This document shows positions 32,331-49,026 of a stretch of DNA of 64,000 nucleotides, one piece after another. Source of the DNA: Massilia forsythiae (GTDB lineage Bacteria > Pseudomonadota > Gammaproteobacteria > Burkholderiales > Burkholderiaceae_D); the NCBI RefSeq assembly GCF_012849555.1, contig NZ_CP051685.1, forward strand, positions 4,960,001-5,024,000. The letters are read 5' to 3'. The notes under the pieces are model-generated. The model worked only from the letters and a program-made list of their open reading frames with translations, was not told the origin of the DNA and searched no databases. The position numbers and the translations under genes were made by a program. Numbering within the stretch: position 1 is the stretch's first letter; every line of letters begins with the position of its first letter.

Positions 32331-33484
32331 ACGCGCCCGCCGGGCCGGGCAGGCGCGCCGCCGCTGGCGCGGACGCCGATGCCGGCGCCGGGCTGCGCCT
32401 GCTGGCCGACATCGGCGGCACCAATGCCCGCTTCGCGCTGCAGGATGCGACGGCGCATGCGCGAGATGGTGGCGCCGGCCTGGCCGCCGCCGCCGGTTTC
32501 GTCGACATCGGGGTGCTGGCCTGCAGCGAACACGCCACCATCGGCGCCGCGCTCGACGCCTACCTGACACGGGCGGCGGCGCGCGGCTTGGCGGTGGACG
32601 GCATCCGCCACGCGGCGCTGGCGATCGCCAATCCGGTCGAGGGCGACGCCGTCTGCATGACCAACCACCACTGGCGCTTTTCGATCGCTGCCCTGCGCGC
32701 CGAGCGCGGGCTCGACACCCTGCTGGTGCTGAACGATTTCCAGGCGCTGGCGATGGCGCTGCCGCACCTGCGCGCCGGCCAGCGCGAAACCGTCGGCGCG
32801 AGCACGGGCACGAGCACCGGCGCCGGTCCGGGTTCAGCCAGCCCGGTGGCGGCGCCGGGCCGGCCGATCGGCCTGGTCGGACCCGGCACCGGCCTGGGCG
32901 TCTCCGCCGTGGTGCCGTGCGGCGGGCGCTGGATCGCGCTGGCGGGCGAGGGCGGCCACGCCAGCTTCGCCGCGGCCACGCGCGCCGAGGCGCGGATCCT
33001 GGATGCGCTGCAGGAGCGCTTCGGCCACGTCTCGGCCGAGCGCCTGTTGTCCGGCACCGGCCTGGAGCTGATCCACGCGGTGACGGCCGCACGGCACCTG
33101 CCTGCGCCCGAGATTACGCGGCGCGCCTTGGCGGATGACGACGCCGCTTGCCGCGCCACCGTCGCGACCTTTTGCGCGGTGCTGGGCAGCGTGGCCGGCA
33201 ACGTCGCGCTGACGCTGGGCGCCACCGGCGGCATGTATATCGGTGGCGGCATCGTGCCGCGCCTCGGGCGGCTGTTCCACGACTCCGCCTTCCGCGCGCG
33301 CTTCGAAGACAAGGGACGCCTGCAGCCCTACCTGGCCCGTATTCCGACCTGGCTGGTCACCGAGCCTTATCCGGCGCTGCACGGCGCGGCGGCGCTGCTG
33401 GCCGAATCCATCGCCGAAGACAGCGCCGAACGCAGCCATGAACGCGGCGCCGGCGCGCGCCGGCCGGCACCCGCACGCCACTGA
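32327..33484 (+). CDS. glk: Glucokinase
   Basis: The ATG at 32327 overlaps the GH3 stop (ATGA), so translation is coupled. The 385-residue protein has LLADIGGTNARFAL at about residues 25-38 (phosphate 1 loop), IANPVEGDAVCMTNHHW, VLNDFQALAMALPHL, GPGTGLGVSAVV and GEGGHASFA, all standard for Glk (ROK-independent glucokinase family). It is longer than the usual 320 residues because of an Ala/Gly-rich N-terminus and a low-complexity insert of about 24 residues near residue 160 (GASTGTSTGAGPG). It phosphorylates the glucose released by the beta-glucosidase. A strong terminator follows. Confidence 0.93.
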   Translation: MNAPAGPGRRAAAGADADAGAGLRLLADIGGTNARFALQDATAHARDGGAGLAAAAGFVDIGVLACSEHATIGAALDAYLTRAAARGLAVDGIRHAALAIANPVEGDAVCMTNHHWRFSIAALRAERGLDTLLVLNDFQALAMALPHLRAGQRETVGASTGTSTGAGPGSASPVAAPGRPIGLVGPGTGLGVSAVVPCGGRWIALAGEGGHASFAAATRAEARILDALQERFGHVSAERLLSGTGLELIHAVTAARHLPAPEITRRALADDDAACRATVATFCAVLGSVAGNVALTLGATGGMYIGGGIVPRLGRLFHDSAFRARFEDKGRLQPYLARIPTWLVTEPYPALHGAAALLAESIAEDSAERSHERGAGARRPAPARH

Positions 33485-34326: not shown

Positions 34327-35001
34327 TCAGACGCCGAAACGGGCGAAGGCGCGCGTCACCAGCGCATGCGCGTCGCGCTCGATGATGGCGTTGTGCGCCG
34401 TGATCACGCGCGTGAACGGCCAGGCCAGCACGCTGCGCGCGGCGGCCGCCGTGTGTTTTTCACGTGCCACCAGGCGCACCGTGCGCGGCACGTCGACCCG
34501 GCCGCGCACGCCGGTGACGCGCGCATACAGCGCGGCGCGCCAGTCCAATCGGCCGCACCAGCACTGCACCAGGTCGGTCATGACCAGCGTGGCGGAGGCG
34601 CGGTGGAACCACACCGTTTCCTGCACCAGCGGGATCGGAAAACGCACCTGGTCGAGTTCGCCGGCCCACGCCGGTTCGACCCGCTCGCCGAGGGGATGCA
34701 AACCGGTGAGGTCGCTGCGCTTGCGCGCCAGGCCGGGCGGGCCGTACAGCGCGGCGTCCGGGAACTGGCGCCGGCAATGGCCGGCGAACAGGTGATGGGC
34801 CAGGTTCGGGGCGACGATCCAGGCCACCTCGCCGAGCGCAGCCAGCTGCTCGCGCACCTCGGCGCCGAAGCGCACCGGGGAATGGATCCACAGGCGGCCG
34901 TCCCGGAAGCGCACCACCGTCATGCGCGAAGTCACGGGAACGCCCGCGGCCGTCATGCCGCGCTCCATGTGCCACAGGTCCGGTGCGAGCTGCACGAGCA
35001 T
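34327..35001 (-). CDS. DUF4336 family protein
   Basis: The 224-residue protein begins MLVQLAPDLWHMERGMTAAGVPVTSRMTVVRFRDGRLWIHSPV. This resembles the opening beta-strands of DUF4336 proteins, which have a metallo-beta-lactamase-like outline but lack the normal metal motif; here APNLAHHLFAGHCRRQFP is the nearest equivalent. No signal or membrane segment is seen. It lies 23 bases after the acyltransferase gene on the same strand and may be the last gene of the TonB/halogenase operon. The function is unknown. Confidence 0.8.
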   Translation of the reverse strand: MLVQLAPDLWHMERGMTAAGVPVTSRMTVVRFRDGRLWIHSPVRFGAEVREQLAALGEVAWIVAPNLAHHLFAGHCRRQFPDAALYGPPGLARKRSDLTGLHPLGERVEPAWAGELDQVRFPIPLVQETVWFHRASATLVMTDLVQCWCGRLDWRAALYARVTGVRGRVDVPRTVRLVAREKHTAAAARSVLAWPFTRVITAHNAIIERDAHALVTRAFARFGV

Positions 35002-35024: not shown

Positions 35025-36230
35025 TCAGCGTTCCGGCGCGCTCGCCTCGTCGGCAGCGCCGGCCGCGGCCGCGGCGGCCTGCACCGGCCGGGCGCCGCTG
35101 CGTCCCTCGACCAGGCGCCGCCCCAGCCAGCGGCGCAGCGGCACGTCATAATAGGTCAGGCACAGCCAGGCCAGCGCCACGCTGGCGCCGAACGCCGCCA
35201 GCGCCACCGGCCAGCCGTCCGCCAACTTGACCTTGCCGTCCACGGCCCAGGCGGTGTAGGTGTACACGATCGGGTAATGCACGATGTACAGCGGATACGA
35301 GATCGCACCGAGGACGCCGCAGACGCGCGCAGGCGCTCCCGCCGCCACCGCGCCGCTGGCGCCCAGCCAGACCACCAGCGGGAACAGCACGATGATACAG
35401 ACCGCTTCATACAGGCCGTTCATCCACAGCGTCGACGCACCGCCGACGCGCGGCATCGCCAAGATCGCCGCCACCAGCAGCGCGCACAGCGGAAAAGAAT
35501 GGGCGATGCGGCTTGGGCGCACCATGCGCGACAGCAGCAGGCCGGCGAAGAACGGGTACATCAGGCGGGTGAAGCCGAGCTGCAGCTGCGCCGGTTCCAG
35601 CGACCAGCCGCCGATGACGTCGCCGTTCGGTCCCCACACCGTGTGCTGCGCCAGCGCGCAGCCGGCCACGAACACGAGGATTGCCAGCGCCGTATTGGAA
35701 AAGCGCCGGATCACCAGCGCGTACAGGAGGTTGGCGACGTACTCGAAGAACAGCGACCAGGCCGGCCCGTTCAGCGCGTGCATCTCGCCCCAGCCGCGCA
35801 CGTCCATCGAGGGCGGCAGCGGCAACAGCGTCATGCCGACCACCAGCGCCAGCAGCACGTCGCCCGCCGTGGCGCCGGCGTATTTCGGGAAGATGCCGCT
35901 GGCCTGGAACGGGAACATCAGGGCGCCGATGAGCATCGCGATCACGATCATCGGATGCAGGCGCACCAGGCGGCGCTTGCAGAAGTCGGCAAATGTCATG
36001 CGCTGCCAGCGGTCGTCGTAGGCGTAGCCGATCACGAAGCCGGACAGCACGAAGAAGAAGTCGACCGCCAGGTAGCCGTGGTTGATCAGCTGCTCGAAGC
36101 GGTTCGGCGCATGTGCCTCGAACAGGTGGAAGGCGACCACCATCAGCGCCGCCACGCCGCGCAGGCCGTCCAGGATCGGGTAGTGGCGCTTGCTGTCGCC
36201 GAAGGCGGCATCGATGCTGGTCGAGTTCAT
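35025..36230 (-). CDS. Membrane acyltransferase (acyltransferase 3 family)
   Basis: From the ATG at 36230 (401 residues) the protein reads RHYPILDGLRGVAALMVVAFHLFEAH, with the conserved Arg and His of acyltransferase-3 proteins, then YLAVDFFFVLSGFVIGYAYDDRW and KRRLVRLHPM. About ten membrane segments follow. The C-terminal 35 residues are Ala-rich and cytosolic. Members O-acylate sugars, glucans or lipids on the membrane surface. The gene follows halogenase 1 by 13 bases and probably belongs to the same operon, so its acceptor may be the glycan handled there. An earlier GTG at 36242 is possible. Confidence 0.88.
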   Translation of the reverse strand: MNSTSIDAAFGDSKRHYPILDGLRGVAALMVVAFHLFEAHAPNRFEQLINHGYLAVDFFFVLSGFVIGYAYDDRWQRMTFADFCKRRLVRLHPMIVIAMLIGALMFPFQASGIFPKYAGATAGDVLLALVVGMTLLPLPPSMDVRGWGEMHALNGPAWSLFFEYVANLLYALVIRRFSNTALAILVFVAGCALAQHTVWGPNGDVIGGWSLEPAQLQLGFTRLMYPFFAGLLLSRMVRPSRIAHSFPLCALLVAAILAMPRVGGASTLWMNGLYEAVCIIVLFPLVVWLGASGAVAAGAPARVCGVLGAISYPLYIVHYPIVYTYTAWAVDGKVKLADGWPVALAAFGASVALAWLCLTYYDVPLRRWLGRRLVEGRSGARPVQAAAAAAGAADEASAPER

Positions 36231-36243
36231 GGATGTGCCCACC

Positions 36244-37743
36244 TCAGGCCTTGGCCGGGCAATAGCGCGCCACGTAGTCGCCGTGTTGCGGCAGCTGCGA
36301 GGCGGTGCGGCGCACGTTGGCGCGGATGCCTTCCAGGAAGCCGGATAGTTCCTCGTCGCCCATCAGGTCGGCGGTGTGGTGGTGGGTGGCCGGCATCATC
36401 CCTTGTCCGAGCATCACCTGCACCCAGGAGTTTTCCGCGAACAGTTCGTTCTGCAGGCGGAACACGCGCCCGGTGTCGCGGAACAGCGCGATGCGGTGGC
36501 GCAGCGATTCCGGCACGTCCATGGTCGCCGCGGCTTCCCAGTACGGCGTGTCGCGCCGGTTGGTGACCTTGTAGTGCAGGATGATGAAGTCGCGGATGGT
36601 GCGGATGTCTTCCGCCGCCTGGGCGTTGTACTCGTCGATGTCGGTCTGGTGGATGCCGTGTGTCGGGAACAGCTGCAGCAGGCGCACGATGGCGCGTTGG
36701 ATCAGGTGGATGCTGGTCGACTCGATCGGTTCCAGGAAGCCGCTGGCCAGGCCCATGCCGATACAGTTGGCGGCCCACACCTGCTTTCTCTGGCCGGGAC
36801 GGAAGCGGATCGTGCGCGGTTCGGTCAGTTTCTTGCCCTGGACATTGGCCAGCAGCGCGGCGCGCGCCGTGTCGTCGTCGACGTGACGGCTGGAGAACAC
36901 GATGCCGTTGCCGACCCGGCCCTGCAGGCCGATGCGCCACTGCCAGCCCCAGTCGTGGGCGATGGCGCGCGTGTACGGCACCACCGGCCCGGTCGACTCG
37001 GTCTGCAGCGCGATGGCGCTGTCGTTGAACAGCCATCGCGACCAGTCCTCGTATTCGACACCCAGCGCCTGGCCCAGCAGCAGCGAGCGGAAACCGGTGC
37101 AATCGATGAACAGGTCGCCCTCCACGCGGCTGCCCGAATCCAGGCGCAGCGCCGCGATGTGGCCGCTGGCCTCGTTCTTTTCCACCGCGGCGATCTTCGC
37201 TTCGATGCGCTCGACGCCGAAGTGTTCCGAGAAGCGGCGCAGGTAGCGCGCGTAGCGGGTGGCGTCCAGGTGGTAGGCGTAGTTCAAGCCATCCTTGGGC
37301 AGGTGGGCGAAGCGGTTTTCCCTGGCCGCCAGCAGTTCCAGGCAATAGTCGCCGTAGTCGTGCGCCAGGCCGCGCTCGCGGCCCTTGTGCCAGAAGTGCT
37401 GGAAACCGGCGCTCCAGTGGTCGGTGCCGGTCAGGCCGAACGAGTGGATGTAGTCTTCGCCGCGCGCGCGCCAGTTCTCGAAGCTGATGCCGAGCTTGAA
37501 GGTGGCCTGCGTCGCAGCCATGAATTCGCGCTCGTCGATGTCGAGCAGGCGGTGGAAGTGCACCAGCGAGGGAATGGTCGCCTCGCCGACGCCGACCGTG
37601 CCGATCTCGTCGGATTCCACCAGCTTGATGTCGAGCACCTTGCCGAGCGTGCGCGAGAGCGCCGCCGCCGCCATCCAGCCGGCGGTGCCGCCGCCGGCGA
37701 TCACCACGCGCCGGATCGGGCCGTTCTGTTTGTCGTGTTCCAT
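36244..37743 (-). CDS. Flavin-dependent tryptophan-halogenase family protein 1
   Basis: The 499-residue protein has the FAD-binding GGGTAGWMAAAAL at residues 17-29, GVGEATIPSL at 51-60, the catalytic-lysine region TFKLGISFENWR with Lys83, FIDCTGFRSLLLG and the motif WQWRIGL in place of WxWxIP. ASGFLEPIESTSIHLI follows. It keeps the halogenase fold and the key lysine but has Gly where the classic motif has Pro. Halogenases of this branch (BrvH-like) sit beside TonB receptors, and free tryptophan is probably not their substrate. It needs reduced FAD from a partner reductase not seen here. It lies 45 bases after the cupin gene. Confidence 0.9.
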   Translation of the reverse strand: MEHDKQNGPIRRVVIAGGGTAGWMAAAALSRTLGKVLDIKLVESDEIGTVGVGEATIPSLVHFHRLLDIDEREFMAATQATFKLGISFENWRARGEDYIHSFGLTGTDHWSAGFQHFWHKGRERGLAHDYGDYCLELLAARENRFAHLPKDGLNYAYHLDATRYARYLRRFSEHFGVERIEAKIAAVEKNEASGHIAALRLDSGSRVEGDLFIDCTGFRSLLLGQALGVEYEDWSRWLFNDSAIALQTESTGPVVPYTRAIAHDWGWQWRIGLQGRVGNGIVFSSRHVDDDTARAALLANVQGKKLTEPRTIRFRPGQRKQVWAANCIGMGLASGFLEPIESTSIHLIQRAIVRLLQLFPTHGIHQTDIDEYNAQAAEDIRTIRDFIILHYKVTNRRDTPYWEAAATMDVPESLRHRIALFRDTGRVFRLQNELFAENSWVQVMLGQGMMPATHHHTADLMGDEELSGFLEGIRANVRRTASQLPQHGDYVARYCPAKA

Positions 37744-37788
37744 GTGGGTCTCCTGGCGCGTCGCCCCTCGTGCGCGCGTCTTTTTGTA

Positions 37789-38886
37789 TTAACGGTTTAT
37801 GCGTTTCAGCAGCTGGCCGCGCAGCGTGCGCGCGCGCTCGTCGTCGAGCGGCGCCAGCGCGTAGCGCGCCTGCGGCGGAATGTGATCGAGCGCCTCGGCG
37901 TCTGGCTCGAAGATATAGTGGCGGAACATCTCTTGCCAGGCGCGCCGCTGCTCGGGCGGCAGTTCGCGCATGGTCAGCAGCGCCAGCATGAGCGCGTTGG
38001 TCGGCGTGTCCATGTAGTCGGGCGACTGGCGCCACCAGTAGTTCACCAGCACGTTGAACGGCGCCAGCGCCTCCACGTGGTGCCACCACATCGACGGGAT
38101 GAAGATGGCGTCGCCGGCGTCCAGTTCGGCCACCTGCGCGTGTTCCAGCGCCTGCCGGAAGCGCGGAAAGCGCGCGAAGTCGGGCGCCGTCACGTCGACC
38201 AGGCTGATCGACTGGCCCGCCGGCGTGAAGTCGATCGGGCCGATGTACAAATTGGCCAGCTGCTCGGGCGGGAACAGCGTGAAGCGGCGGCGTCCGGCCG
38301 CCACCACCGCCAGGTTGTCCGGCAGGTCGTAGTGCGCGGCGATGCGGGTGCGGTTGCCGATCCAGATGCTGGCCAGCGCGTCGCGACCGTGCAGGTCGAC
38401 GTCGTTGTCGGCGCGCAGGCCCGGCAGCGCGGTGTCGATCGTGGTCGAGCCGACGTAGATCGCCGGTTGCGGCTGGCCCGGCGCGGCGGCGTCCCTGTCG
38501 CGGTGGCCGCGCATCTCGTCCAGCACCGCGTCCAGGCGCGCGCGCACGGAAAAGAAATTGAAGCCGCTCAGGGTGTCGTCGTAGAAGAAGCGCCCGCCGA
38601 TCTCGGGCTTGCCCAGCATGGCGTTGACGGTGGCGTCGCGGTAGAAGCGGCGCAGGTAGGCGTCGCCGGCATCGATGGAGTCGCGCGCGGCGCGCACCAG
38701 CGGCCAGCCTGCGGCCAGGCCGCGCACGATGTACGGTCGGGTGGCGCGCAGCAGCTCGTCCGGCAATGCGGGCCGTGCGCCGGGCGCGGCCGGCGCAATG
38801 GCGATCTCGCGCATCGGCGCGGGTGTCGGTGCGGGTATCGGCGCGGACGGCATGGCGCTAAGCATATCGCTAGACCCGGATGGCAT
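37789..38886 (-). CDS. JmjC/cupin-like domain protein
   Basis: The 365-residue protein begins with a Pro/Ala-rich segment, then ELLRATRPYIVRGLAAGWPLVR, the start of cupin_8/JmjC-type proteins. The jelly-roll holds IWIGNRTRIAAHYDLPDN with His185 and Asp187, and AIFIPSMWWHHVEAL with His270, a complete 2-His-1-Asp iron site for 2-oxoglutarate-dependent hydroxylation. RRFTLFPPEQL between them is typical. The frame overlaps the end of sapC by 17 bases; later Met codons could be the true start. It belongs to the TonB/halogenase operon. A protein or glycan hydroxylation role is inferred. Confidence 0.88.
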   Translation of the reverse strand: MPSGSSDMLSAMPSAPIPAPTPAPMREIAIAPAAPGARPALPDELLRATRPYIVRGLAAGWPLVRAARDSIDAGDAYLRRFYRDATVNAMLGKPEIGGRFFYDDTLSGFNFFSVRARLDAVLDEMRGHRDRDAAAPGQPQPAIYVGSTTIDTALPGLRADNDVDLHGRDALASIWIGNRTRIAAHYDLPDNLAVVAAGRRRFTLFPPEQLANLYIGPIDFTPAGQSISLVDVTAPDFARFPRFRQALEHAQVAELDAGDAIFIPSMWWHHVEALAPFNVLVNYWWRQSPDYMDTPTNALMLALLTMRELPPEQRRAWQEMFRHYIFEPDAEALDHIPPQARYALAPLDDERARTLRGQLLKRINR

Positions 38887-39643
38887 CGAAGCCGGCCCGG
38901 GCGCGCTGTGCGTGGCGGTCGCGGTTGGCGCGGTTGCGGCGCTCGATCAGGCCGCGGAACTGCGACAGCGAGGCCACCGCCATGTAGATCGCCTGCAGGT
39001 AGCCGGCGCGGTTGAGGCGCTCCAGGCGCTCGGCCGGCAGGTCGAGCAGCCGTTCTTCGTGGATCGTGTAGAAGCCGGCCAGGCGGTTCTGCGAGCCGTC
39101 GTCCAGTTCGATGTCGAGCGCGAACGATTCCAGCAGCTCGAGTTCCATCAGCGCCGCGACGAAGCCGCGCGAGGCCGTCAAGCCTTCGTGGATGGTGCGC
39201 AGCACCGAGGCGATGCGCTCGAGGTATTCGCTGGTGCCGCCGTAGGTGAGGAACAGCGCCTCGCCGACGCCGGGCGCGGTCGACAGGCGCGGGCTGTCGA
39301 GGTCCACGTGCACCGACAGTTCCTCGGCGCCGCGCCCGATCATGAAGGGCTGGCGCTCGACGGTGAGCGGAATCGCCGGCGCGTCCCAGCGCGCCTGGCC
39401 GGTCTCGTGGTCCTCGACCAGGAACAGGTTCTCGCCTTCCTCGAAGCCGAGCAGCGCGACCGGGTCGAACGACATGCCGTCGGCGGTCCTGGCGAACACG
39501 ATCGGGTAGCTGGCCTGCAGTTCGCGGAACTCGGCCGGGAAGGTCAGGGCCGACATGACGGCATCGCCGTAGGCGGCGCCGCGCGCGGTGATCACGCGCA
39601 GGTCCTTGTGGTCGACGCTGTTGAGCAGTACGTGGTTGGGCAT
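38870..39643 (-). CDS. SapC family protein
   Basis: The 257-residue protein begins MPNHVLLNSVDHKDLRVITARGAAYGDAVMSALTFPAEFRELQASYPIVFAR in its frame, the well-kept start of the SapC family, followed by LLGFEEGENLFL and RQPFMIGRG. SapC is named after a Campylobacter surface-layer protein gene, but members in proteobacteria with TonB receptors and halogenases have no proven role. No signal peptide is evident. It lies between halogenase 2 (41 bases upstream) and the cupin gene (overlapping). Confidence 0.92.
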   Translation of the reverse strand: MPNHVLLNSVDHKDLRVITARGAAYGDAVMSALTFPAEFRELQASYPIVFARTADGMSFDPVALLGFEEGENLFLVEDHETGQARWDAPAIPLTVERQPFMIGRGAEELSVHVDLDSPRLSTAPGVGEALFLTYGGTSEYLERIASVLRTIHEGLTASRGFVAALMELELLESFALDIELDDGSQNRLAGFYTIHEERLLDLPAERLERLNRAGYLQAIYMAVASLSQFRGLIERRNRANRDRHAQRARAGFDAIRV

Positions 39644-39684
39644 CGGTGTGTCTCTCTTCGTTTGTTATTGGTATGTGGTGCGGT

Positions 39685-41247
39685 TCAGGTGCGCGGCAGG
39701 CCGCGCCGCGCCGCGTGCGTCAGCAGTTCGCGGTTGGACGGCAGCGCCGGCAGCATTTTGGCGGCCAGGCGCGCCGCTTCGCGCACGCACTCGTCAGCCA
39801 GCCGCGGCAGGTCGGAGGCGCGCGCCGCGCCGTCCAGCGTAAAACCCATCCCGTACAGGATGTACTGGTAGCTGGCGGCCGGGAACACTTCCTCGATGCG
39901 CGGGAAGTCGCGCCGCGACGGCGGACGCGTGCGCCACAGGTCGAGCAGCTCACGCAGGCGCGCGGGCATGGTGCGTGCCTCGCGGTGCTCGATCCAGAAC
40001 GGGCTGTCGGCGCGTTTCGACAGCACGTAGTGCAGCTTGAGGAATTCGATCACGCGTTCCCAGCGATAGGTAAAGGCCTCGTTGAAGCGCGCCGCCACCG
40101 CGTCGACCTGGGCGCGCGTGGCCGGCATGTCGTCGGCCAGCCAGGCCGCGGCCATCTCGACCAGCGCCAGCGCCGACGCTTCCAGCGGTTCGATGAAGCC
40201 GCTCGACAAGCCGATCGCGACGCAGTTGCGGTGCCAGAAGCGCGCCCGGTAGCCCGGCTCGAAGGCCAGTCTGCGCGCCGCCGGCTGGTCCTGCGGCGCC
40301 GGGCCGCCCGTGGCGGCGACATAGGCGCGCAGGTCGCGTTCGGCATCCTCGTCGCTGCAATGGGCGCTCGAATACACGTGGCCGATGCCGCGCCGGGTCG
40401 GCAGGCCGATGTCCCAGATCCAGCCGCTGCGCTGGGCGGTGGAGGTGGTCTGGGAAGCGATCGGCGCGTCCGGGGTGGCGTACGGCACCTGCAGCGCCAG
40501 CGCGCGGTCGTTGAACAGCACGTCCTTTTTTTCCACCAGCGGCACGCCGTAGTGCCCGCCGAGCAGCAGCGATTGCATGCCGGTGCAGTCGATGAACAGG
40601 TCGCCGGTCAAGCGTTCTTCGCCCGGCGCGCGCTCGCGCAGGCGCAGCGCGGCGATGTCGCCGTTCTCGTGGGATTCGATGGCGTCGACGTGGGCGCGCA
40701 GGTGGCGCACGCCGAGCCGGTCGGTGCAGTGGCGGCGCAGGAACTCGCCGAACTTGCCGGCATCCAGGTGGTAGCCGTAGTTGGCCACCGCGGCGAACTC
40801 CGGCGTGTGCGGCTGCTTGGGTGCGCGCCCGTGCAGGCACAGGTGCGGCTGGAAGCTGACCAGCTCGGCGAACGCGATGTCGTGCTGCGTGTCGCGCTTG
40901 ATGCGCTGCCAGGCAGCGGCCAGGTTGGCGTCGCCGTAGCCCTGGGGCAGGACGAACGGGTGGAAGTAAGTGTCGCGCGCGCTGCCGTCGACCCAGCGGT
41001 CGAAACGGGAGCCTTGCTTGAAGGCGGCGTCGCATTCGCGCAGGAAGTCGGATTCCGACACGCCAATGCGGCGCAGCGTGTCGCGCATCGAAGGCCAGGT
41101 GCCTTCGCCGACGCCGATCGGCGCCACGCCGGGCGATTCGACCAGCGTTACGCGCAGCGACGGATGCTCGGCGGCGAAGACCGCGGCGGCCAGCCAGCCG
41201 GCGGACCCGCCGCCGACCACCACGATGTGTTCGATGGTGTTGCTCAT
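39685..41247 (-). CDS. Flavin-dependent tryptophan-halogenase family protein 2
   Basis: I use the ATG at 41247 (520 residues), with GAAAG 8 bases upstream; an ATG at 41259 is also in frame. The protein has VVGGGSAGWLAAAVF at 10-24, GVGEGTWPSM at 45-54, AAFKQGSRFDRW with Lys77 as the probable catalytic lysine, FIDCTGMQSLLLG and GWIWDIGL in place of WxWxIP. It differs strongly from halogenase 1 (GEGTW against GEATI), so the two are old paralogues with probably different roles. It is the first gene after the TonB receptor, with a REPIN between them. Confidence 0.9.
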   Translation of the reverse strand: MSNTIEHIVVVGGGSAGWLAAAVFAAEHPSLRVTLVESPGVAPIGVGEGTWPSMRDTLRRIGVSESDFLRECDAAFKQGSRFDRWVDGSARDTYFHPFVLPQGYGDANLAAAWQRIKRDTQHDIAFAELVSFQPHLCLHGRAPKQPHTPEFAAVANYGYHLDAGKFGEFLRRHCTDRLGVRHLRAHVDAIESHENGDIAALRLRERAPGEERLTGDLFIDCTGMQSLLLGGHYGVPLVEKKDVLFNDRALALQVPYATPDAPIASQTTSTAQRSGWIWDIGLPTRRGIGHVYSSAHCSDEDAERDLRAYVAATGGPAPQDQPAARRLAFEPGYRARFWHRNCVAIGLSSGFIEPLEASALALVEMAAAWLADDMPATRAQVDAVAARFNEAFTYRWERVIEFLKLHYVLSKRADSPFWIEHREARTMPARLRELLDLWRTRPPSRRDFPRIEEVFPAASYQYILYGMGFTLDGAARASDLPRLADECVREAARLAAKMLPALPSNRELLTHAARRGLPRT

Positions 41248-41364
41248 CACAGCTTTCATGTCGAACCGGACTGCATGAGTCTACCTGAAAAGCTGTCTTT
41301 GGAACAACTTCTAGTTTGTTGAAAAAGTTGGTCGGGCAAGTGTGCCCGTGCGCCGGCCTCAAGG

Positions 41365-41485
41365 CCGTCGTCCCCGCGAAGGCGGGGACCCATACATAGC
41401 AACCGGCATCGGCGTCGTATCAGCGCCTCTCAACGTACCGACTTCGGAAGCTCAGTATGGGTCCCCGCCTGCGCGGGGACGACGT
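41365..41485. repeat. REPIN: two inverted REP palindromes
   Basis: Hairpins GTCCCCGC-GAAG-GCGGGGAC at 41370-41389 and GTCCCCGC-CTGC-GCGGGGAC at 41461-41480 face each other, with CGTC outside and CCATAC/GTATGGG inside. About 70 unique bases lie between them. The unit sits between the TonB receptor and halogenase 2 of one apparent operon, where its RNA hairpins could affect decay or termination. Confidence 0.85.
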
Positions 41486-41517
41486 TTCAGCGCTGACTCG
41501 TCAGGCGAACGCTTTCA

Positions 41518-44500
41518 TCAGAACTTGTACCGCGCCCCCACCATGTAGCGCGGGCCGTTCTGCGTCGCGTACTCCACCATCTGCTTGGTGCGGCCGTGCG
41601 TGCGGGTGATCGAATCGGTCAGGTTCATGCCCTCGAACTGCAGCGTCAGCCGGTCGGTGACGTTGTAGCCGATGTTCACGTCCAGCTGACCGTAGGCTTC
41701 CACGTACACCGGGTTCGGGCCGGCGCTGTCGAAGGTCGAGGCCAGGAATTCGCCGCGCCAGTTCCAGGCGGTGCGCACGCTCCACTTGTCGTTCTCGTAG
41801 ATGCCGACCAGGTTGTACGAGTTCGACAGGCCCGGCAGTGCGAACTGCTCGCCGATCGAGGTGTTGTCGTAGCGCAGGCCCGAGTGCACGTAGGTGTAGT
41901 TGGCCTGCAGGCCGAAGCCCGAGTTGCCGAACATGTGCTGCAGATTGAATTCCAGGCCGTTCAGGCTGGCCTTCTTCTGGTTCGACGAAGTCGTGATGCG
42001 GAAGTTGGCGATCGGGTCGCTCTGCTGGCCGGTGATCGTGCCGGTGGCGTTGCCGTTGGCATCGTCCGCGCCGCGCACCACGCCCGGCGCGCCGGCATGG
42101 TTGCGGAAGATGTAGTTGCGGATGCAGGTGGTGTCGGCATTGCCGCAGCCGCGCGCCAGCGCCTCGTTCCAGAAGGTGCCGCCGACCGGGGTGTGCAGGT
42201 TGAATGGCGTGGCCAGGAACTGCGACTGGCCGGCGAAGTTGTCCAGGTCCTTGTAGAACGCGTTCACCGAGGCGAAGCTCTGCTTGGCGTAGTACCACTC
42301 GAACGACAGGTCGAAGTTCTTCGACTTGACGGGTTTCAGCGCCGGGTTGCCCTGGTGGCCGGTGCCGCCTTCCACGCGCGCCAGCGAATCCAGGATCTGG
42401 CCGCCGGCGATCTGGTCGTAGCGCGGACGGCCGATGGTCTCGCCGTAGCTGGCGCGCACCTTCATGTCGGGGCGCACGTCCATGTCCCAGTCGATGCTCG
42501 GCAACAGGTTGTTGTACTTGCCGCCCAGCGTGGTGAAGGTCGGCGCGCCGAAGTTGACCGAGAATTCGTTCTGCGAACCCCAGCTGATCGAGTTCGCGGC
42601 CGGCACCAGCGCGGTCGAGAGCACGTCGGTCTTTTCGTAGCGCAGGCCGATCGCGGTGTGCATCGGCATTGCCGTGTCCCAGTCGGTATTGAACTGCAGG
42701 TACAGGTACTTCGATTTCTCGGTGGTGCGCTGGTCCTGGTCGAAGGTGGTCTTGGCCGTGTACAGCTGCGGCTTGCCGGTGGCGCTGGCCGCGACCTGGC
42801 GCACCTCGTTGAAGTTGAAGGTGTAGAAATTGTTGAACAGGTTCGGGTTGCCGCTGCCGTCGATCTGGTCGAAGTAGCCGCGCACGGTGGCCGGGTGGAA
42901 CAGGCTGCTCGGGTAGTCCGAGGCCTTGGTGGCGCCGCCCCAGGTGTCGCTCTGGTTGTTCGACAGCGCCGAGCGGTTCTTGACCTCGGTCGCGCCCAGG
43001 CCGAAGTTCAGGTTCGACGATTCCAGCATGCGCAGGCGGCCCTTCACCTGCGCCTGGTCGACTTCGCCCTTCATGTAGCCGTTCTGGAAGTTGGAACCGG
43101 TGACCTGCTGTGGCGCGCGCGCGAAGTCGGCGCCGGCGATCGACAGTACCGGGAAGTCGTGCGAGAAGTCGGCCGAGGTATCGCCGCGGCTGAAGCTGGC
43201 GGTGCCCAGGGTGTTGAAGGAACCCAGCGGGCTGTCGGCTTTCGACTCGGCGGTCGAACGATGCGCGTCGAACTCGAGCTTGAGGTCGGCATTGGCGCGC
43301 CACTGGGCATTGAAGCCGAGCGACTTGTTCTGGGTCTTGGTGGCGAAGTCGCCGCCGCCCATGGCGATGTCGCTGGTGGCCGGCGAGATCTGCTCGGTGT
43401 ACACCAGCGGCGCCGCCACCGGGCCATTGGTCCAGGTCGAGGTCGACGGGCCGAAGTTGAACCAGGCCGAGACGTCGTTGCGCTTGGTCTGGATCTTGTT
43501 TTCCGAGTAGGTGTAGTCGAGGGTGGTGACCAGGTCCTTGACCGGCGCGAACTGCAGGGTCAGCTGGCCGTTGGTGCGCTGGCGCTTGACGCCCGAGAAG
43601 CTGTAGTTCAGGTTCTGCGGCACCTCGTACAGGGTGCTGCCCTGGGGCCGGTTGACGGCGCCGGTGGCCGGGATGGTGCCCCAGTTGTTCTCGTCGCCGC
43701 GGAACGGACCCTTCCAGCCGCTCGACACGGACGCCTGGTTGTAGCCCAGGTTGCGTTCCTGGTAGCTGGCGCTGATGCCCAGGCCCCACTTGCCGTCGGC
43801 GCTGGTGGTGCTGTAGATGCCCGAGAATTCCGGCGTGGTCGACTTGCTGGCCTTGACGTCGCCCGGCAGGTTGTTGTTGGTGGTGTCGTGCACCGCCTTG
43901 ACGCCGATGCTGGACCAGGTGCCCAGCTTGTCCAGCGGCCGTGCGGTGACCACGTTGATGGTGGCGCCGATGCCGCCGGTCGGGGTCTCGGCGCGGCTGG
44001 TCTTGTACACCTGCAGCTGCGAGATCGCTTCCGAGGCCAGGTTGGCGAAGTCGAAGGCGCGGCCGTTCAGGTCGCCCAGGTTCGAGGTCGGCATCTGGCG
44101 GCCGTTGAGCAGCACCATGTTGTAGTCGGGGCCGATGCCGCGCACGGTGACCTTCGATCCTTCGCCGATCGAGCGGTCGATCGACACGCCCGAGATGCGC
44201 TGCAGCGATTCCGCCAGGTTGGTATCGGGGAACTTGCCGATGTCCTCGGCCACGATGCCGTCGACGATACCGTCCGAATTGCGCTTCAGGTTCAGCGACG
44301 AGGCCAGCGACTGGCGCAGGCCGGTGACCTTCACCTGCTGCACCGCACCGGGGGCGGCGCTATCGTAGGGGGTGGCGACCGGCGCCACGCCGTTATCCTG
44401 CACCTGCGCCTGGGCCGGGTTCTGCACCTGGTCTTGCGCGTGGGCGGGGAACACGATCGCCGCGCAGGCGCCGGCCACGGCCAGGCTGATCAGTTTTTGC

Positions 44501-44520
44501 TTCGCCTTGGGATGATTCAT
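41518..44520 (-). CDS. TonB-dependent receptor, probable glycan importer
   Basis: The 1000-residue protein has a signal peptide (LISLAVAGACAAIVFPAHA), a Gln-rich linker, then the TonB box-like region VQQVKVTGLRQSLASSLNLKRNSDGIVDGIVAEDIGKFPDTN and the plug LQRISGVSIDRSIGEGSKVTVRGIGPDYNMVLLNGRQMPTS, diagnostic of the large oligosaccharide-type receptors of Caulobacter, Xanthomonas and Massilia. The barrel ends MVEYATQNGPRYMVGARYKF. It should carry an oligosaccharide across the outer membrane. A promoter and a perfect LacI-type operator lie in its 5' region, and AGGAGACCC precedes the ATG. It leads a probable seven-gene minus-strand operon with the halogenases. Confidence 0.95.
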   Translation of the reverse strand: MNHPKAKQKLISLAVAGACAAIVFPAHAQDQVQNPAQAQVQDNGVAPVATPYDSAAPGAVQQVKVTGLRQSLASSLNLKRNSDGIVDGIVAEDIGKFPDTNLAESLQRISGVSIDRSIGEGSKVTVRGIGPDYNMVLLNGRQMPTSNLGDLNGRAFDFANLASEAISQLQVYKTSRAETPTGGIGATINVVTARPLDKLGTWSSIGVKAVHDTTNNNLPGDVKASKSTTPEFSGIYSTTSADGKWGLGISASYQERNLGYNQASVSSGWKGPFRGDENNWGTIPATGAVNRPQGSTLYEVPQNLNYSFSGVKRQRTNGQLTLQFAPVKDLVTTLDYTYSENKIQTKRNDVSAWFNFGPSTSTWTNGPVAAPLVYTEQISPATSDIAMGGGDFATKTQNKSLGFNAQWRANADLKLEFDAHRSTAESKADSPLGSFNTLGTASFSRGDTSADFSHDFPVLSIAGADFARAPQQVTGSNFQNGYMKGEVDQAQVKGRLRMLESSNLNFGLGATEVKNRSALSNNQSDTWGGATKASDYPSSLFHPATVRGYFDQIDGSGNPNLFNNFYTFNFNEVRQVAASATGKPQLYTAKTTFDQDQRTTEKSKYLYLQFNTDWDTAMPMHTAIGLRYEKTDVLSTALVPAANSISWGSQNEFSVNFGAPTFTTLGGKYNNLLPSIDWDMDVRPDMKVRASYGETIGRPRYDQIAGGQILDSLARVEGGTGHQGNPALKPVKSKNFDLSFEWYYAKQSFASVNAFYKDLDNFAGQSQFLATPFNLHTPVGGTFWNEALARGCGNADTTCIRNYIFRNHAGAPGVVRGADDANGNATGTITGQQSDPIANFRITTSSNQKKASLNGLEFNLQHMFGNSGFGLQANYTYVHSGLRYDNTSIGEQFALPGLSNSYNLVGIYENDKWSVRTAWNWRGEFLASTFDSAGPNPVYVEAYGQLDVNIGYNVTDRLTLQFEGMNLTDSITRTHGRTKQMVEYATQNGPRYMVGARYKF

Positions 44521-44546
44521 TGGGTCTCCTGTTTATTCTTCATTGT

Positions 44547-44562
44547 ATGGAAACGTTTCCAT
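44547..44562. promoter_or_regulatory. LacI-type operator of the TonB receptor gene
   Basis: ATGGAAACGTTTCCAT is a perfect 16-base palindrome, the best copy of the motif. It lies 26 bases before the receptor ATG and just after the -10 box of the minus-strand promoter. Confidence 0.8.
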
Positions 44563-44573
44563 GCAGTGCTGGA

Positions 44574-44602
44574 ATCTTAGGTTTAAGAAAATCAATTGTC
44601 AA
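44574..44602 (-). promoter_or_regulatory. Sigma70-type promoter of the TonB receptor operon
   Basis: On the minus strand TTGACA (44602-44597) and TAAGAT (44579-44574) are 17 bases apart. Transcription would start near 44567, next to the operator. Confidence 0.75.
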
Positions 44603-44828: not shown

Positions 44829-45707
44829 ATGCGTAGCAAGGACATGTTCGACACCAGGAGACGCATGCCGCGCGCAGCCGCATCGGCGGTGCTGGCGCTG
44901 GCCTGCATGGTGGCAGCGGCCATGGCGGTGCGACCGTCCATGGCCGCTGCCAGGGCTGGCACGGTGCCGGCAATGCCGATCCCGCAAGCGCCCGGCTGGA
45001 TACTCGACTGGCACGACGAATTCGACGGCCGCGAACTCGACCGCACCAAATGGGTCGCGGAAACCGGCGACCCGCGCAACGGCAACGACGAACGGCAGTT
45101 CTACACCGCACGGCCGCAAAACCTGCGCGTCGAGGACGGCAAGCTGGTGATCGAGGCGCGCCGCGAACGCTACGAAGGCAAGGACTATACGTCGGCGCGC
45201 ATCAAGACCCAGGGCCTGCAGGAACGCACCTATGGCCGCTACGAGGCAAGGATCCGGATCCCGCGCGGGCAGGGCATCTGGCCGGCGTTCTGGATGCTGG
45301 GCGCCGACATCGGCACCGCCGGCTGGCCGCGTTGCGGCGAGATCGACATCATGGAAAACATCGGCAAGGAACCGGGCCTCGTGCACGGCACCCTGCACGG
45401 CCCCGGCTACTCGGGCGAGAAGGGCGTCGGCAAGCCGTCCGCGCTGGACAAGGGCGCCTACGCCGACGATTTCCACCTGTATGCGGTGGAATGGGAGCCG
45501 GGCGAGATCCGCTGGTTCCGCGACGGCATCCTGTACCACACGGCGCGCCCGGACACGGTCGGCGGCGACTGGGTGTTCGCGCATCAGTTCTTCGTGATCC
45601 TCAACCTGGCCGTGGGCGGCTACTGGCCCGGCTATCCGGATGGGACCACGCCGCTGCCGCAGCACATGCTGGTCGACTACGTGCGCGTCTATCGCCGGGC
45701 GAAATAG
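44829..45707 (+). CDS. GH16 endo-beta-glucanase (laminarinase-like), exported
   Basis: The 292-residue protein starts at 44829 with GAGG 5 bases upstream. A signal peptide (AASAVLALACMVAAAMA) precedes GWILDWHDEFDGRELDRTKWVAETG, the standard start of GH16 glucanases. The catalytic motif is EIDIMENIG with Glu171, Asp173 and Glu176. IWPAFWMLG and YHTARPDT-type strands complete the jelly roll, ending in MLVDYVRVYRRAK. The E-I-D-I-M-E form is usual in endo-1,3-beta-glucanases, so laminarin-type glucan is the likely substrate, cut outside the cell. It is divergent from the TonB receptor and shares its regulatory region. Confidence 0.92.
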   Translation: MRSKDMFDTRRRMPRAAASAVLALACMVAAAMAVRPSMAAARAGTVPAMPIPQAPGWILDWHDEFDGRELDRTKWVAETGDPRNGNDERQFYTARPQNLRVEDGKLVIEARRERYEGKDYTSARIKTQGLQERTYGRYEARIRIPRGQGIWPAFWMLGADIGTAGWPRCGEIDIMENIGKEPGLVHGTLHGPGYSGEKGVGKPSALDKGAYADDFHLYAVEWEPGEIRWFRDGILYHTARPDTVGGDWVFAHQFFVILNLAVGGYWPGYPDGTTPLPQHMLVDYVRVYRRAK

Positions 45708-45714: not shown

Positions 45715-46100
45715 TTAGCCCGTTATAGAGTGAAAACTATTCACTACCTGTAAAACGTTATCGCCCAATGAAAGAGAACATTATTTCCCTCAGCGGAAAC
45801 TCTTTTAATGTTGCCAGATGATTGACGACTGCTATCGGCATAGACTGTATAGAAACGCGAAATACACGCGTTTTCAAGGGTCTCTTTACCATTGCGGACC
45901 TCAAGAAAACGTCTTTGAGAGCGTTTGCGGAGGCCGAGTCTTGACAATATACTGTTCGCTTCGGGTATTTACCCATCCTGGGCCAAAAGCAGACGCACGA
46001 TACTGGAGAGATATGGTGGGATACCTTCGACTAGTCCCCGGGCAACCTGCTATGCTGTGTCGAACTGTGTCGAACTGTGGCGATCGGACGAAAGCGGGCG
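45715..46100. other. AT-rich island entry with degenerate repeat copies
   Basis: Base composition drops here after the GH16 gene. Small frames on both strands look accidental. The stretch carries a compact form of the island repeat at about 45950-45996 (CTGTTCGCTTCGGGT ... GGGCCAAAAGCAGACGC) and a second partial copy at 46030-46100 with the core GGCAACCTGCTATGCTG and a duplicated TGTGTCGAAC. TTGACA at 45941-45946 is -35-like. No gene is supported. Confidence 0.5.
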
Positions 46101-46538
46101 ATGAAAGTTTCAATGAAGAGTGATGACAAGCTTGTAGAAAAAATTCTCCAGTCTCTCCTGGATTTGGAGCAACGAGGTGAACTCGTTCTCACGACAAATT
46201 TTGGTGCCGACGCCGCAAGATACATTCTGGGTTCGGCACTGGAACAATTGGTTGCTGATTTTGGCAAATCCGAGAGTCCTATGGAGGTCACGATCCCGTA
46301 TTTGCTAGAAGAAACTATTGAAGAAGTACGGAAAAAATTTGATGTTTCGGAGGCGCGCGCGAGAGAAATTACCGGCGCCTATTATGAACTGCTCCGCAAA
46401 CGTTTGCCACTTGAGAGAATCGCTGAGTTCTATTGGCACGAAACCTCTGGCGAAATGGCCAAGCGTTCTTACTACCGGATTGAGCTTGGGAGAGACGAGG
46501 CCGGCCTCGACTACCTGGACTGGCGCCACAATTATTAA
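46101..46538 (+). CDS. Hypothetical protein, island gene 1
   Basis: The 145-residue frame starts at ATG 46101 (MKVSMKSDDKLVEKILQSLLDLEQRGELVLT); an ATG at 46113 is also possible. It is charged, mainly helical, with no signal peptide or membrane segment, and ends DEAGLDYLDWRHNY. I do not recognise a family. It directly follows a partial copy of the island repeat. By analogy with similar islands it may be an immunity or anti-toxin type protein, but nothing in the sequence proves that. Confidence 0.6.
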   Translation: MKVSMKSDDKLVEKILQSLLDLEQRGELVLTTNFGADAARYILGSALEQLVADFGKSESPMEVTIPYLLEETIEEVRKKFDVSEARAREITGAYYELLRKRLPLERIAEFYWHETSGEMAKRSYYRIELGRDEAGLDYLDWRHNY

Positions 46539-46582
46539 TTCTTTCGATTGCAAACCGTTAGCTTGTACAGAGTCTACTCGAC

Positions 46583-46690
46583 AGTACGCTTTGGGTCGGT
46601 TGCTGAGGGTCGTGACAGTCAGTAAATTTTCTGACCGGGCAACCTGCTATACTATATGGGACGGCCAAGATCGGCCAGAATCGGGCACTT
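46583..46690. repeat. Island repeat R2
   Basis: The copy starts at CGCTTTGGGTCGG, contains GTCGTGACAGTCAGTAAATT and the core GGGCAACCTGCTATACT, and ends GGCCAAGATCGGCCAGAATCGG. The two ends are imperfectly complementary. It precedes the gene at 46748. Confidence 0.75.
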
Positions 46691-46747
46691 GGCGTGGACG
46701 CCATGCACTGACATTAGACCAGAAATTAAAACTAGTGAACGAGATTC

Positions 46748-47158
46748 ATGATGCAAAAAACAATAGGCGCCACGAACAAAACAAAGTGGATGAACATCGT
46801 CGGCGCGGTTTTGTGGGCTTTGACTGGCTTAGCTCTCTTTGCCCAGAAGTTCGGTGCCCAAATATCGTTCAACACCCTTATGGCGATTCTTGTGCTGTAC
46901 AGTTTTATCGTACTTATTCCGGCCGGCACGGCCGTCGCACTTTCCAGTCCCTCTAGGATCGGTCTGCGTAAAGTCATGATCGGCTTGAACGTGTTGTTGA
47001 TCCTGTTAGTAATTCTCGGGTTTGCGGCAGGCATGTATTTAAGAACCTCTGGATTTTTGGGCTATCTTGGATTATTAATATTTTTAGTCCCAGCTGGACT
47101 AAATGTGAAAGCGCTTCAACCGCTGTCGATGCGCTTTCAAAACATGATGGAGCAATGA
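46748..47158 (+). CDS. Small membrane protein, island gene 2
   Basis: The 136-residue protein has four hydrophobic segments: IVGAVLWALTGLALFAQ, LMAILVLYSFIVLIPAGTAVAL, VMIGLNVLLILLVILGFAAGMYL and FLGYLGLLIFLVPAGLNV. Two adjacent ATG codons are available at 46748 and 46751. It has no recognised family or catalytic residue. It should lie in the inner membrane. It sits in the array of unrelated small genes between repeats R2 and R3. Confidence 0.7.
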   Translation: MMQKTIGATNKTKWMNIVGAVLWALTGLALFAQKFGAQISFNTLMAILVLYSFIVLIPAGTAVALSSPSRIGLRKVMIGLNVLLILLVILGFAAGMYLRTSGFLGYLGLLIFLVPAGLNVKALQPLSMRFQNMMEQ

Positions 47159-47204
47159 GCTTACGAGATTATCCGTAATATTTGAGCCGGTTGTCTGTTG
47201 TGTG

Positions 47205-47311
47205 AACGTCTGCAATGGGTCGGTTCCGGTCGGTCGCACCACTTGACGACTTTTCAGCGTATCAACATGCTATGTTGCTTTCGAAGGCCGGGTTCGGCCA
47301 GAAGCAGGCTT
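47205..47311. repeat. Island repeat R3
   Basis: The copy begins AACGTCTGCAATGGGTCGGTTCC-type sequence, has the diverged core CAACATGCTATGTTGC and ends GGTTCGGCCAGAAGCAGGC. The start and end arms are imperfectly complementary (GTCTGC against GCAGGC). Confidence 0.7.
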
Positions 47312-47358
47312 CCGCGTTGCAGTACGTTCAAATTCAATATCGCTCACAGAGGACGGAC

Positions 47359-47628
47359 ATGAGTATGTGGCAGGTAGCCGCTGTAGGCTGGGGTTTTATG
47401 AAGGATGGCGTCGAACACGACTGCGAACTGTCGGGTCTCGTTCGCGCAAAAAATCCCGGTGAGGCGTTTTCCAAAGTCTGCAATATTGCGACAAAGGACC
47501 ATCCAGAACTCCTGCAGGCAGCGGGGCCGTTTCCGCGCCCTGTAATCAATCCCGACGAGATTCAAGAAGTACCTAAAACGCGGTTAGTTGGCGCAGATCA
47601 GGTCGAGCTTTATTGGATTAGAAAATAG
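47359..47628 (+). CDS. Hypothetical protein, island gene 3
   Basis: The frame is open from 47215, but the upstream part is repeat R3 read as protein. The ATG at 47359 has AGAGGACGG in front and gives 89 residues: MSMWQVAAVGWGFMKDGVEHDCELSG, then PGEAFSKVCNIATKDHPELLQA and ending LVGADQVELYWIRK. It is a small soluble alpha/beta-type protein with no signal peptide. No family is recognised. Confidence 0.6.
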   Translation: MSMWQVAAVGWGFMKDGVEHDCELSGLVRAKNPGEAFSKVCNIATKDHPELLQAAGPFPRPVINPDEIQEVPKTRLVGADQVELYWIRK

Positions 47629-47629
47629 A

Positions 47630-47725
47630 TCCGCTCTGGGTCGATAGCAGACGACCAGATAAGTCTGCAAACGGTTAGAAATTTACTTTGACCCTGACGC
47701 GAATCGCCAGAAGTAGGCGTTATAC
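47630..47725. repeat. Island repeat R4, degenerate or double copy
   Basis: A compact hairpin CCGCTCTGGGTCGATAGCAGAC lies at 47632-47652. A second stretch at 47663-47721 (GTCTGCAAACGG ... CGCCAGAAGTAGGC) keeps only the outer arms. It precedes the gene at 47760 and lacks the usual CCTGCTATGCTG core. Confidence 0.5.
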
Positions 47726-47759
47726 TTTTTCGGCGACAAGAAGCTAGCTTTGGAGGGTT

Positions 47760-48179
47760 ATGGGGGGGAATGCCATGTTATCTAGAATAGATTTGTCTAG
47801 CGATGAGGTAAAAGCTGAGCAGTCAGTCAATGTGGCTATTTTCCGTAAACGTCAGCTTCGCGTATGGTTCGGTTTTGGCAGCGTTTTCTTAGGGCCACTA
47901 GTTCTAGACGCCTTTCTTGTTAAGCAAAATGACGCGGTAATTGTCGGTTTTGTGTTTGTAAGCATTATTTTTGTTGTATTCGCTGTACTGCTGTATAAGT
48001 GCCCTAACTGCGCGACTCAGCCATTGAGTGTTTCATGTTCTATCGCCGACGAAGCTAGATACAACAAGGGTGTTCATCCCTTACCTGTGCGATGCATGAC
48101 CTGCGGTTTTTATTTATCAGGAAGGGCTTTGAAAAAGGACATTCAGAGGCAAAAACAAGCAAATTTACACGGTCACTGA
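47760..48179 (+). CDS. Small membrane protein with zinc-ribbon-like cysteines, island gene 4
   Basis: The 139-residue protein starts at ATG 47760 with GGAGG upstream (a second ATG at 47775). Two membrane segments (VWFGFGSVFLGPLVLDAFLV and AVIVGFVFVSIIFVVFAVLLY) are followed by a cytosolic tail with KCPNCATQ and RCMTCGFY, two CxxC pairs about 35 residues apart that could hold a zinc ion. The tail is basic (KKDIQRQKQANLHGH). No family is recognised. Confidence 0.65.
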   Translation: MGGNAMLSRIDLSSDEVKAEQSVNVAIFRKRQLRVWFGFGSVFLGPLVLDAFLVKQNDAVIVGFVFVSIIFVVFAVLLYKCPNCATQPLSVSCSIADEARYNKGVHPLPVRCMTCGFYLSGRALKKDIQRQKQANLHGH

Positions 48180-48290
48180 ACGTCTGCTTCGGGTCGGAAG
48201 CGTCCCCTCGTGGCACTCCGTAATTTTTCATTGTGGAAACCTGCTTTGCTGATCCCGAAAGCCGGATCCGGTCAATAACAGAAGCTGATA
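48178..48290. repeat. Island repeat R5
   Basis: The copy starts GAACGTCTGCTTCGGGTCGG, has a diverged core AAACCTGCTTTGCTG and ends near CCGGTCAATAACAGAAGC. The outer arms GTCTGCTTC and AGAAGC remain partly complementary. It precedes the gene at 48338. Confidence 0.65.
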
Positions 48291-48337
48291 GGTTCAGAGT
48301 CTGAATCCCTTGTCTGGTCAAAAGAATTGAAGTTGTA

Positions 48338-48883
48338 GTGGTGTCTGTTCGCTTGGAGAATGAATTGCATAAAAAGTCCTCGCCACGCTTACCTCTTCAT
48401 ACAGTAGAGCAGCTATTCGAAAAGCTGAAGTATGACGAGTCGCGTCTTGAACAATCGTGGAGTGTCTATGACACGTTTAACTTCGTAGTTACAGCGCATC
48501 ACCTGTACATCGACTGGCTGCAAGGAAAACGAGGAGCTACGGCCGAACAAGCTCACCGGGCACACAACCTTTCAAGTGAAGCCAAAGCTCTTTTTAAGGC
48601 TGTAACAGAAGTATCAAACGGGACAAAACACTGGGAACTTACCGATCCTAAGAAAAAAGAAAGTCAAATTATTGATGAGGTCACGCCTCCATGCATAGAT
48701 GACTATGAGTCATATTGCTTTGGAGAGATGGTGCATTTCCGCTTTAATGACTATTATATTAGTATTTTTGCCGCATCTGCTTTAATTATTGGGTATTTCG
48801 AATGGATGATCTTTGGCAAAGACAAGCCAACTGCAGACGAGCTCGATGATGCCCTTGCCAGTTTTAAGATAGCGCCTACTTAA
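48338..48883 (+). CDS. Hypothetical protein, island gene 5
   Basis: The 181-residue frame probably starts at one of two adjacent GTG codons (48338, 48341), as no in-frame ATG is near the N-terminus. It reads VVSVRLENELHKKSSPRLPLHTVEQLFEKLKYDESRLEQSW, then TAHHLYIDWLQGKRG and AVTEVSNGTKHWELTDPKKKESQ. It is helical, soluble or peripherally bound, with a mildly hydrophobic stretch FAASALIIGYFEWMIFG near residue 150. No family is recognised; the NGTKHW motif might be a fingerprint for a search. Confidence 0.65.
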   Translation: MVSVRLENELHKKSSPRLPLHTVEQLFEKLKYDESRLEQSWSVYDTFNFVVTAHHLYIDWLQGKRGATAEQAHRAHNLSSEAKALFKAVTEVSNGTKHWELTDPKKKESQIIDEVTPPCIDDYESYCFGEMVHFRFNDYYISIFAASALIIGYFEWMIFGKDKPTADELDDALASFKIAPT

Positions 48884-48970: not shown

Positions 48971-49026
48971 GGGTATTCAATTTATTCTGTCAGGTGCGTT
49001 ACAACGCATTGCTAAGGAAGAGCACA

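Follow-up and report, generated by a model that had tools for sequence, protein, structure and literature searches.

The brominating indole halogenase Xcc4156 of Xanthomonas campestris (6Y1W) and the halogenase BrvH (6FRL) accept indoles and do not act on free tryptophan. Both have an open site that lacks a pocket for the amino and carboxyl groups of the tryptophan backbone, and a peptide substrate, as for MibH, has been proposed; no native substrate is established for Xcc4156, for two other X. campestris halogenases or for BrvH (PMC7336383, PMC5945002). MibH, the proposed open-site analogue of these two enzymes, halogenates tryptophan only within its peptide (PMC5945002, PMC7336383). 2PYX is an unpublished structural-genomics tryptophan-halogenase-like protein that is called an unnamed halogenase in one report (PMC7336383), and the accessible literature holds no activity for it. 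QhpG and LodB, from the same flavoprotein superfamily, oxygenate tryptophan inside a protein (PMC7876137). Here we describe a locus of Massilia forsythiae in which the gene for a TonB-dependent receptor (TBDR) is followed by genes for a 2PYX-like protein (HalA), SapC, a cupin and an orthologue of Xcc4156 (HalB). The stretch analyzed, referred to as the window, is 64,000 nucleotides long and spans positions 4960001-5024000 of the 6.37 Mb genome; within it, the cassette genes are all intact and all located on the minus strand.

A conserved cassette of five genes

The cassette and its control region are composed of the following features, given in window positions.

44574-44602, minus strand: sigma-70-like promoter, TTGACA-17-TAAGAT, with a 10/12 pattern match (a consensus match only)
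44548-44561, minus strand: LacI-type operator TGGAAACGTTTCCA, a 14-bp perfect palindrome directly 3' of the -10 box
41518-44520, minus strand: TBDR of 1000 amino acids, cassette gene 1, TIGR01782 by profile match
41366-41484, no strand assigned: REP-like inverted repeat in the gap between TBDR and HalA, a local insertion outside the conserved cassette
39685-41259, minus strand: HalA, flavin halogenase family (PF04820), WxWDIG/EPLEAS clade, Lys81 kept
38870-39643, minus strand: SapC, PF07277 by profile match, predicted to be cytoplasmic
37789-38886, minus strand: cupin_8/JmjC-like Fe(II) oxygenase with H185-D187-H269, PF13621 at 235 bits
36244-37743, minus strand: HalB, flavin-dependent halogenase (PF04820) of the Xcc4156 orthologue group, Lys83, local WQWRIG

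Orthologues of HalA that are 68-78% identical were found in 23 of the 36 congeners searched, and the order receptor-HalA-SapC-cupin-HalB is retained at all 23 orthologous loci, each of which also carries the exact operator 14-mer close to where the receptor gene begins. A wider search was seeded with short HalA peptide patterns, which biases the sample toward close HalA relatives. The complete, unbroken, one-strand order was present in 56 of the 80 best HalA loci from named genomes, and many of those without it are truncated by contig ends. Hosts of the full order reach from Burkholderiales (Massilia, Duganella, Paucibacter and Roseateles) to Lysobacterales (Pseudoxanthomonas, Luteimonas and Stenotrophomonas) and Alteromonadales, and include Steroidobacter and its relatives, Colwellia, Thalassomonas and others. 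In a separate sample across the phylum, seeded with SapC, a receptor and a halogenase were located together at 10 of 40 loci, six of which have the cupin too. The five genes are thus a conserved cassette that is newly described here and absent from searchable papers; full-text literature searches returned no description of it, which is weak evidence given their thin coverage of subscription journals.

The receptor is the constant partner in this arrangement, and the surrounding sugar genes vary between loci. Variants of the cassette occur without HalA (L073, L087, L108 and Xanthomonas), without HalB (L166, L170, L176 and L187) or without the cupin (L140 and L149), and a maltodextrin-type locus elsewhere in this genome (L005) combines a receptor with one halogenase. 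The association of halogenase and TonB receptor that had been pointed out from the window alone is firm across both the HalA loci and the Xanthomonas-type rows.

Several further halogenase genes were seen in the course of these comparisons. Many receptor-halogenase pairs are found at congener loci L064, L065, L066 and L067, commonly a single HalB-type enzyme for each receptor with neither SapC nor cupin, and as many as 14 halogenase-like matches occur in one congener genome. In the second cassette of one congener (L069; G031:C25:15467-15716), HalA is broken into two short fragments and receptor, SapC, cupin and HalB are intact. A fourth halogenase of the M. forsythiae genome (L006 8901-10577, near 4871568) reads WTWRIP, has no adjoining receptor and is located near a GH9-like glycanase.

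Neither of the two genes downstream of HalB belongs to the cassette. The original prediction had counted a membrane acyltransferase as a member; a PF01757 gene does follow HalB, but it lies outside the range that had been given for the system, and none of the 23 orthologous loci contains a match to it. The same is true of the DUF4336 gene, for which no match was found in those 23 loci. We also looked for a precursor-peptide gene and found none in the cassette. Gaps between the genes are mostly 70-140 bp or less, often below 90 bp, too short to accommodate a conserved precursor gene, and the order includes no small gene that is kept between loci. A precursor-peptide pathway inside the cassette was therefore rejected; remote precursors are possible. 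In this respect the cassette differs from the lanthipeptide pathway of MibH, which has a precursor peptide.

The halogenases, the cupin and SapC

HalB and HalA score 638 and 390 bits, respectively, against PF04820 (cut-off 21 bits). Each retains the FAD-binding GxGxxG motif (GGGTAG in HalB, GGGSAG in HalA), the catalytic glutamate (EPIEST in HalB, EPLEAS in HalA) and the catalytic lysine, which is Lys83 in HalB and, in HalA, Lys81 when counted from the first ATG or Lys77 from an internal methionine. This lysine is kept in 110 of 111 HalB relatives and 112 of 112 HalA relatives. Two flavin-halogenase paralogues with intact catalytic lysines, as first read from the window, are therefore confirmed. 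WxWxIP is absent from both enzymes, HalB having WQWRIG and HalA WIWDIG. That both carry WxWxIG had also been recognized earlier, but the motif does not indicate a shared reaction. WxWDIG (or IA, ID) together with EPLEAS is the norm of the HalA clade, with the proline missing in all 37 members gathered without a motif search, whereas WxWxIP is found in 107 of 111 HalB-type relatives, and the HalB of the window departs from its nearest relatives in this respect. Replacement of the proline by glycine arose at least twice among HalB-type enzymes, in the window HalB alone (36900-36950) and in a clade of enzymes from maltodextrin loci (L005 at 8969-10480 in this genome, L035, L230, L243 and L248). 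We therefore rejected WxWxIG as a joint hallmark, because it is a clade norm in HalA and a strain-specific change in HalB.

The best solved match of HalB is Xcc4156 (PDB 6Y1W; 756 bits, 69% identical), and a tree built from 226 halogenases places Xcc4156 within the cassette HalBs, adjacent to cassette enzymes of Lysobacterales relatives. HalB is probably a halogenase, judging by its relatedness to this indole-brominating enzyme. The two differ in that Xcc4156 has WMWRIP where HalB has WQWRIG, and an asparagine at the second halide-site position where HalB has a serine. Orthologues of Xcc4156 (88-90% identical to 6Y1W) close receptor-SapC-cupin-HalB rows in three Lysobacteraceae genomes (L223, L226 and L227), which we take to belong to the genus Xanthomonas; unlike the cassette of the window, the Xanthomonas rows have no HalA. 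One of the three has two more halogenases: one of 53% ends a further receptor-SapC-cupin-halogenase row (L224), and one of 51% is found after large genes behind a LacI gene (L225). BrvH belongs to the same broad branch as HalB, has an open substrate site and adjoins a second halogenase gene (PMC5945002), but its identity to cassette HalBs is only ∼45-48% and its branch lies outside theirs.

The solved structures nearest to HalA are 2PYX, 9LTB and 9LU2; a literature search found no paper for the latter two halogenases. 2PYX shares WDIG and EPLEAS with HalA and is located inside the HalA clade of the same tree, beside the HalA of full cassette L080 (63%). The best NCBIfam match of HalA is QhpG, at 40.5 bits far under the cut-off of 240, and the LodB profile gives 28.2 bits against a cut-off of 400. 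In contrast to those two proteins, HalA keeps the halogenase lysine.

The cupin is complete in its 2-His-1-Asp triad, in agreement with the earlier reading, as H185, D187 and H269 are present in all 100 of 100 relatives. Among solved structures it is closest to FIH, followed by JMJD5 and other JmjC protein or RNA hydroxylases, with which it has the HxD...H triad in common; the 2-oxoglutarate residue of FIH, Lys214, is replaced by Arg200 in the cupin, and this arginine is 100% conserved. SapC, likewise correctly recognized, scores 219 bits against PF07277 (cut-off 28.9). Its AlphaFold model has a pLDDT of 97, and Foldseek returned no fold match in the PDB at E<=0.001. Residues H12, E38, N72, P92, P99, F131 and S225 are invariant. 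Outside the cassette, the neighbors of SapC include RTX proteins together with HlyD (type I secretion) and further secretion components, two-partner systems of the ShlB type, and TonB receptors other than that of the cassette. What these settings share is a large protein that is exported through the envelope, and this gives the widespread SapC family a common theme as partner of large exported surface proteins; we infer that SapC may be a handler of such polypeptide chains. Inspection of the N-termini of HalA, SapC, the cupin and HalB revealed no evident signal peptide, which suggests that the four proteins work in the cytoplasm.

Candidate substrates of the cassette enzymes

The receptor is the constant partner of these enzymes, is encoded in the same operon and would be unfolded while in the cytoplasm, and the nearest analogues of the enzymes include modifiers of protein or peptide; together this favors the receptor as substrate. 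We therefore hold, tentatively, that the cassette enzymes modify protein with the receptor as first candidate, a reading that falls a little short of probable. A LacI-family repressor would occupy the operator of the receptor operon, and in the presence of beta-glucan breakdown sugars the receptor would be made together with the four cytoplasmic proteins HalA, SapC, cupin_8 and HalB. These four could form a modification set for an aromatic or polar residue embedded in a protein or peptide, in which HalB, and probably HalA too, would halogenate with a preference for bromide, the cupin would hydroxylate, and SapC would hold or present the polypeptide. The likeliest target would be the co-made receptor chain prior to its export. 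In its most general form, namely that bacteria brominate or chlorinate and hydroxylate their own TonB sugar receptors via a sugar-induced cytoplasmic enzyme set with SapC as handler, and that this is the native job of the Xcc4156 and 2PYX enzymes, the proposal is unlikely.

The receptor itself scores 643 bits to TIGR01782 (cut-off 310), with plug PF07715 and barrel PF00593, and its predicted model has a pLDDT of 86.5. Judged from the order of the strands, three cassette-specific tryptophans, Trp269, Trp353 and Trp527, map to outer loops or to the ends of strands. A number of points weigh against the receptor as target. The predicted outer positions of these tryptophans would fit plain sugar stacking equally well. 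No aromatic residue of the receptor tracks HalA; in receptors of cassettes without HalA, nearly all are retained. Elsewhere in this genome, a receptor from this clade with no halogenases nearby (L196) retains the signature residues, although modification in trans could account for this. To our knowledge, no halogenated or hydroxylated receptor has been described. A search for receptor residues that track the presence of HalA, HalB or the cupin produced nothing convincing; receptors of the class without HalB have lost Trp527, but four of the five loci in question are from one clade and the loss therefore counts approximately once. Comparison of receptor sequences leaves the choice of substrate undecided. 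Separately, at L211 (7688-16395, near 3483972 in this genome) a receptor that belongs to the cassette clade but has no halogenases lies ahead of what seem to be a ShlB-type transporter and a large exoprotein and is itself preceded by a ROK-like regulator; this receptor is a natural control for modification in trans.

An alternative, which we consider somewhat unlikely, is that the substrate is a small aromatic compound (an indole, phenolic or similar) that enters with the glycan or is formed during its use and that the enzymes tailor or remove, with the receptor acting as importer or being merely co-regulated. Xcc4156 and BrvH do turn over free indole and indole derivatives (PMC7336383, PMC5945002), and the tight linkage of receptor and enzymes across many sugar settings would also be in keeping with import. 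However, BrvH turns over indole poorly, a reaction judged non-native (PMC5945002), the compared loci have no recurrent gene for biosynthesis, aromatic degradation or export alongside the cassette, and two halogenases, an FIH-like hydroxylase and SapC seem excessive for one simple arene. That the enzymes instead belong to a secondary-metabolite pathway as ordinary halogenases of free tryptophan, located beside a receptor by chance, is highly improbable and largely refuted by conservation. The family name, PF04820, is all that speaks for it, whereas the gene order is kept across bacterial orders, the cassette is under a common sugar operator, and the characterized HalB relative does not accept free tryptophan. 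The original prediction had likewise argued for something other than free tryptophan, and the bromination of indoles, and not of free tryptophan, by Xcc4156 bears this out (PMC7336383).

A further possibility concerns HalA and overlaps with both the protein and the small-molecule readings: HalA may be a monooxygenase, its lost proline and EAS for EST marking hydroxylation, such that only HalB, or in this strain neither enzyme, halogenates. WxWxIP has been suggested to block monooxygenase activity (PMC5945002), and since the proline is missing throughout the HalA clade, with EPLEAS in place of the halogenase EPLEST, HalA may be an oxygenase; its weak kinship to QhpG and LodB points the same way. 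Nevertheless, the catalytic lysine and glutamate, both required for halogenation, are invariant in HalA, and the role of the proline is merely suggested and unproven. We regard this possibility as quite improbable.

If the receptor is the target, its halogenation or hydroxylation would constitute a novel class of modification for bacterial outer-membrane proteins. In any event, brominating enzymes that were purified and crystallized without a natural substrate (Xcc4156, the two X. campestris halogenases and BrvH) gain a first concrete genomic setting. Xcc4156, the best studied of these, and HalA-type 2PYX are now brought together in one five-gene unit with a receptor, SapC, an FIH-like oxygenase and sugar control, and the question of what these halogenases act upon narrows to a few testable candidates, the receptor first among them.

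Sugar control and genomic surroundings

The following features surround the cassette in the window.

44829-45707, plus strand: GH16 beta-glucanase (PF00722), divergent from the receptor and beside the cassette in most congeners
35025-36230, minus strand: acyltransferase_3 membrane protein (PF01757), 13 bp after HalB; the open reading frame extends to 36242 and the likely start is 36230
34327-35001, minus strand: DUF4336 protein (PF14234), local neighbor
32336-33484, plus strand: glucokinase, PF02685 at 330 bits
29649-32330, plus strand: GH3 exo-beta-glucosidase, with an operator copy at 29583-29596, ∼53 bp upstream
20476-21531, plus strand: LacI/GalR-family regulator, likely repressor; its orthologue adjoins GH3 in congener loci L053 and L073
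16097-20377, plus strand: sugar ABC transporter genes (binding protein, permease and ATPase), with an operator copy at 16048-16061

The presence of GH16, GH3, glucokinase, a sugar ABC transporter and LacI identifies this as a beta-glucan locus which, judged from its enzymes, would be for use of laminarin/lichenan-type glucan, and which upholds the glycan-uptake setting proposed earlier. A receptor, glycosidases, a transporter and a LacI operator are also what TonB-linked sugar-use (CUT) loci with LacI control have in common with it; in contrast, the modification enzymes of the cassette are unnecessary for sugar use as such.

Control of the TonB receptor by a sugar operator was likewise borne out. 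Matches to the operator with up to two mismatches number five in the window, against 0.13 expected, and variants precede the GH3 gene (29583) and the gene for the sugar-binding protein (16048). Exact matches to TGGWAWCGTTWCCA occur at five sites genome-wide, three of which are inside the window. The LacI protein encoded at 20476-21531 is the likely repressor and would bind these sites. The REP-like element at 41366-41484 has 47-nt arms that are 83% complementary, and its 29-mer core has 221 forward matches in the genome. Given that this repeat splits TBDR from HalA, co-transcription of the two in this strain is likely but not certain, and the repeat could attenuate or stabilize the operon mRNA.

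On the far side of the GH16 gene, 45818-52215 is of low GC content (∼50-55%) and encodes small proteins, of which the four tested have no Pfam match; it is possibly an orphan immunity or island region. Between LacI and GH3, 21837-29157 contains VgrG, a DDE transposase (24648-25691), a putative lipase-type protein (25910-27670) and a Tli4-type immunity protein (27667-29157). LacI and GH3 are direct neighbors in L053, indicating that the glucan locus of this strain was interrupted by the arrival of a type VI effector-immunity island.

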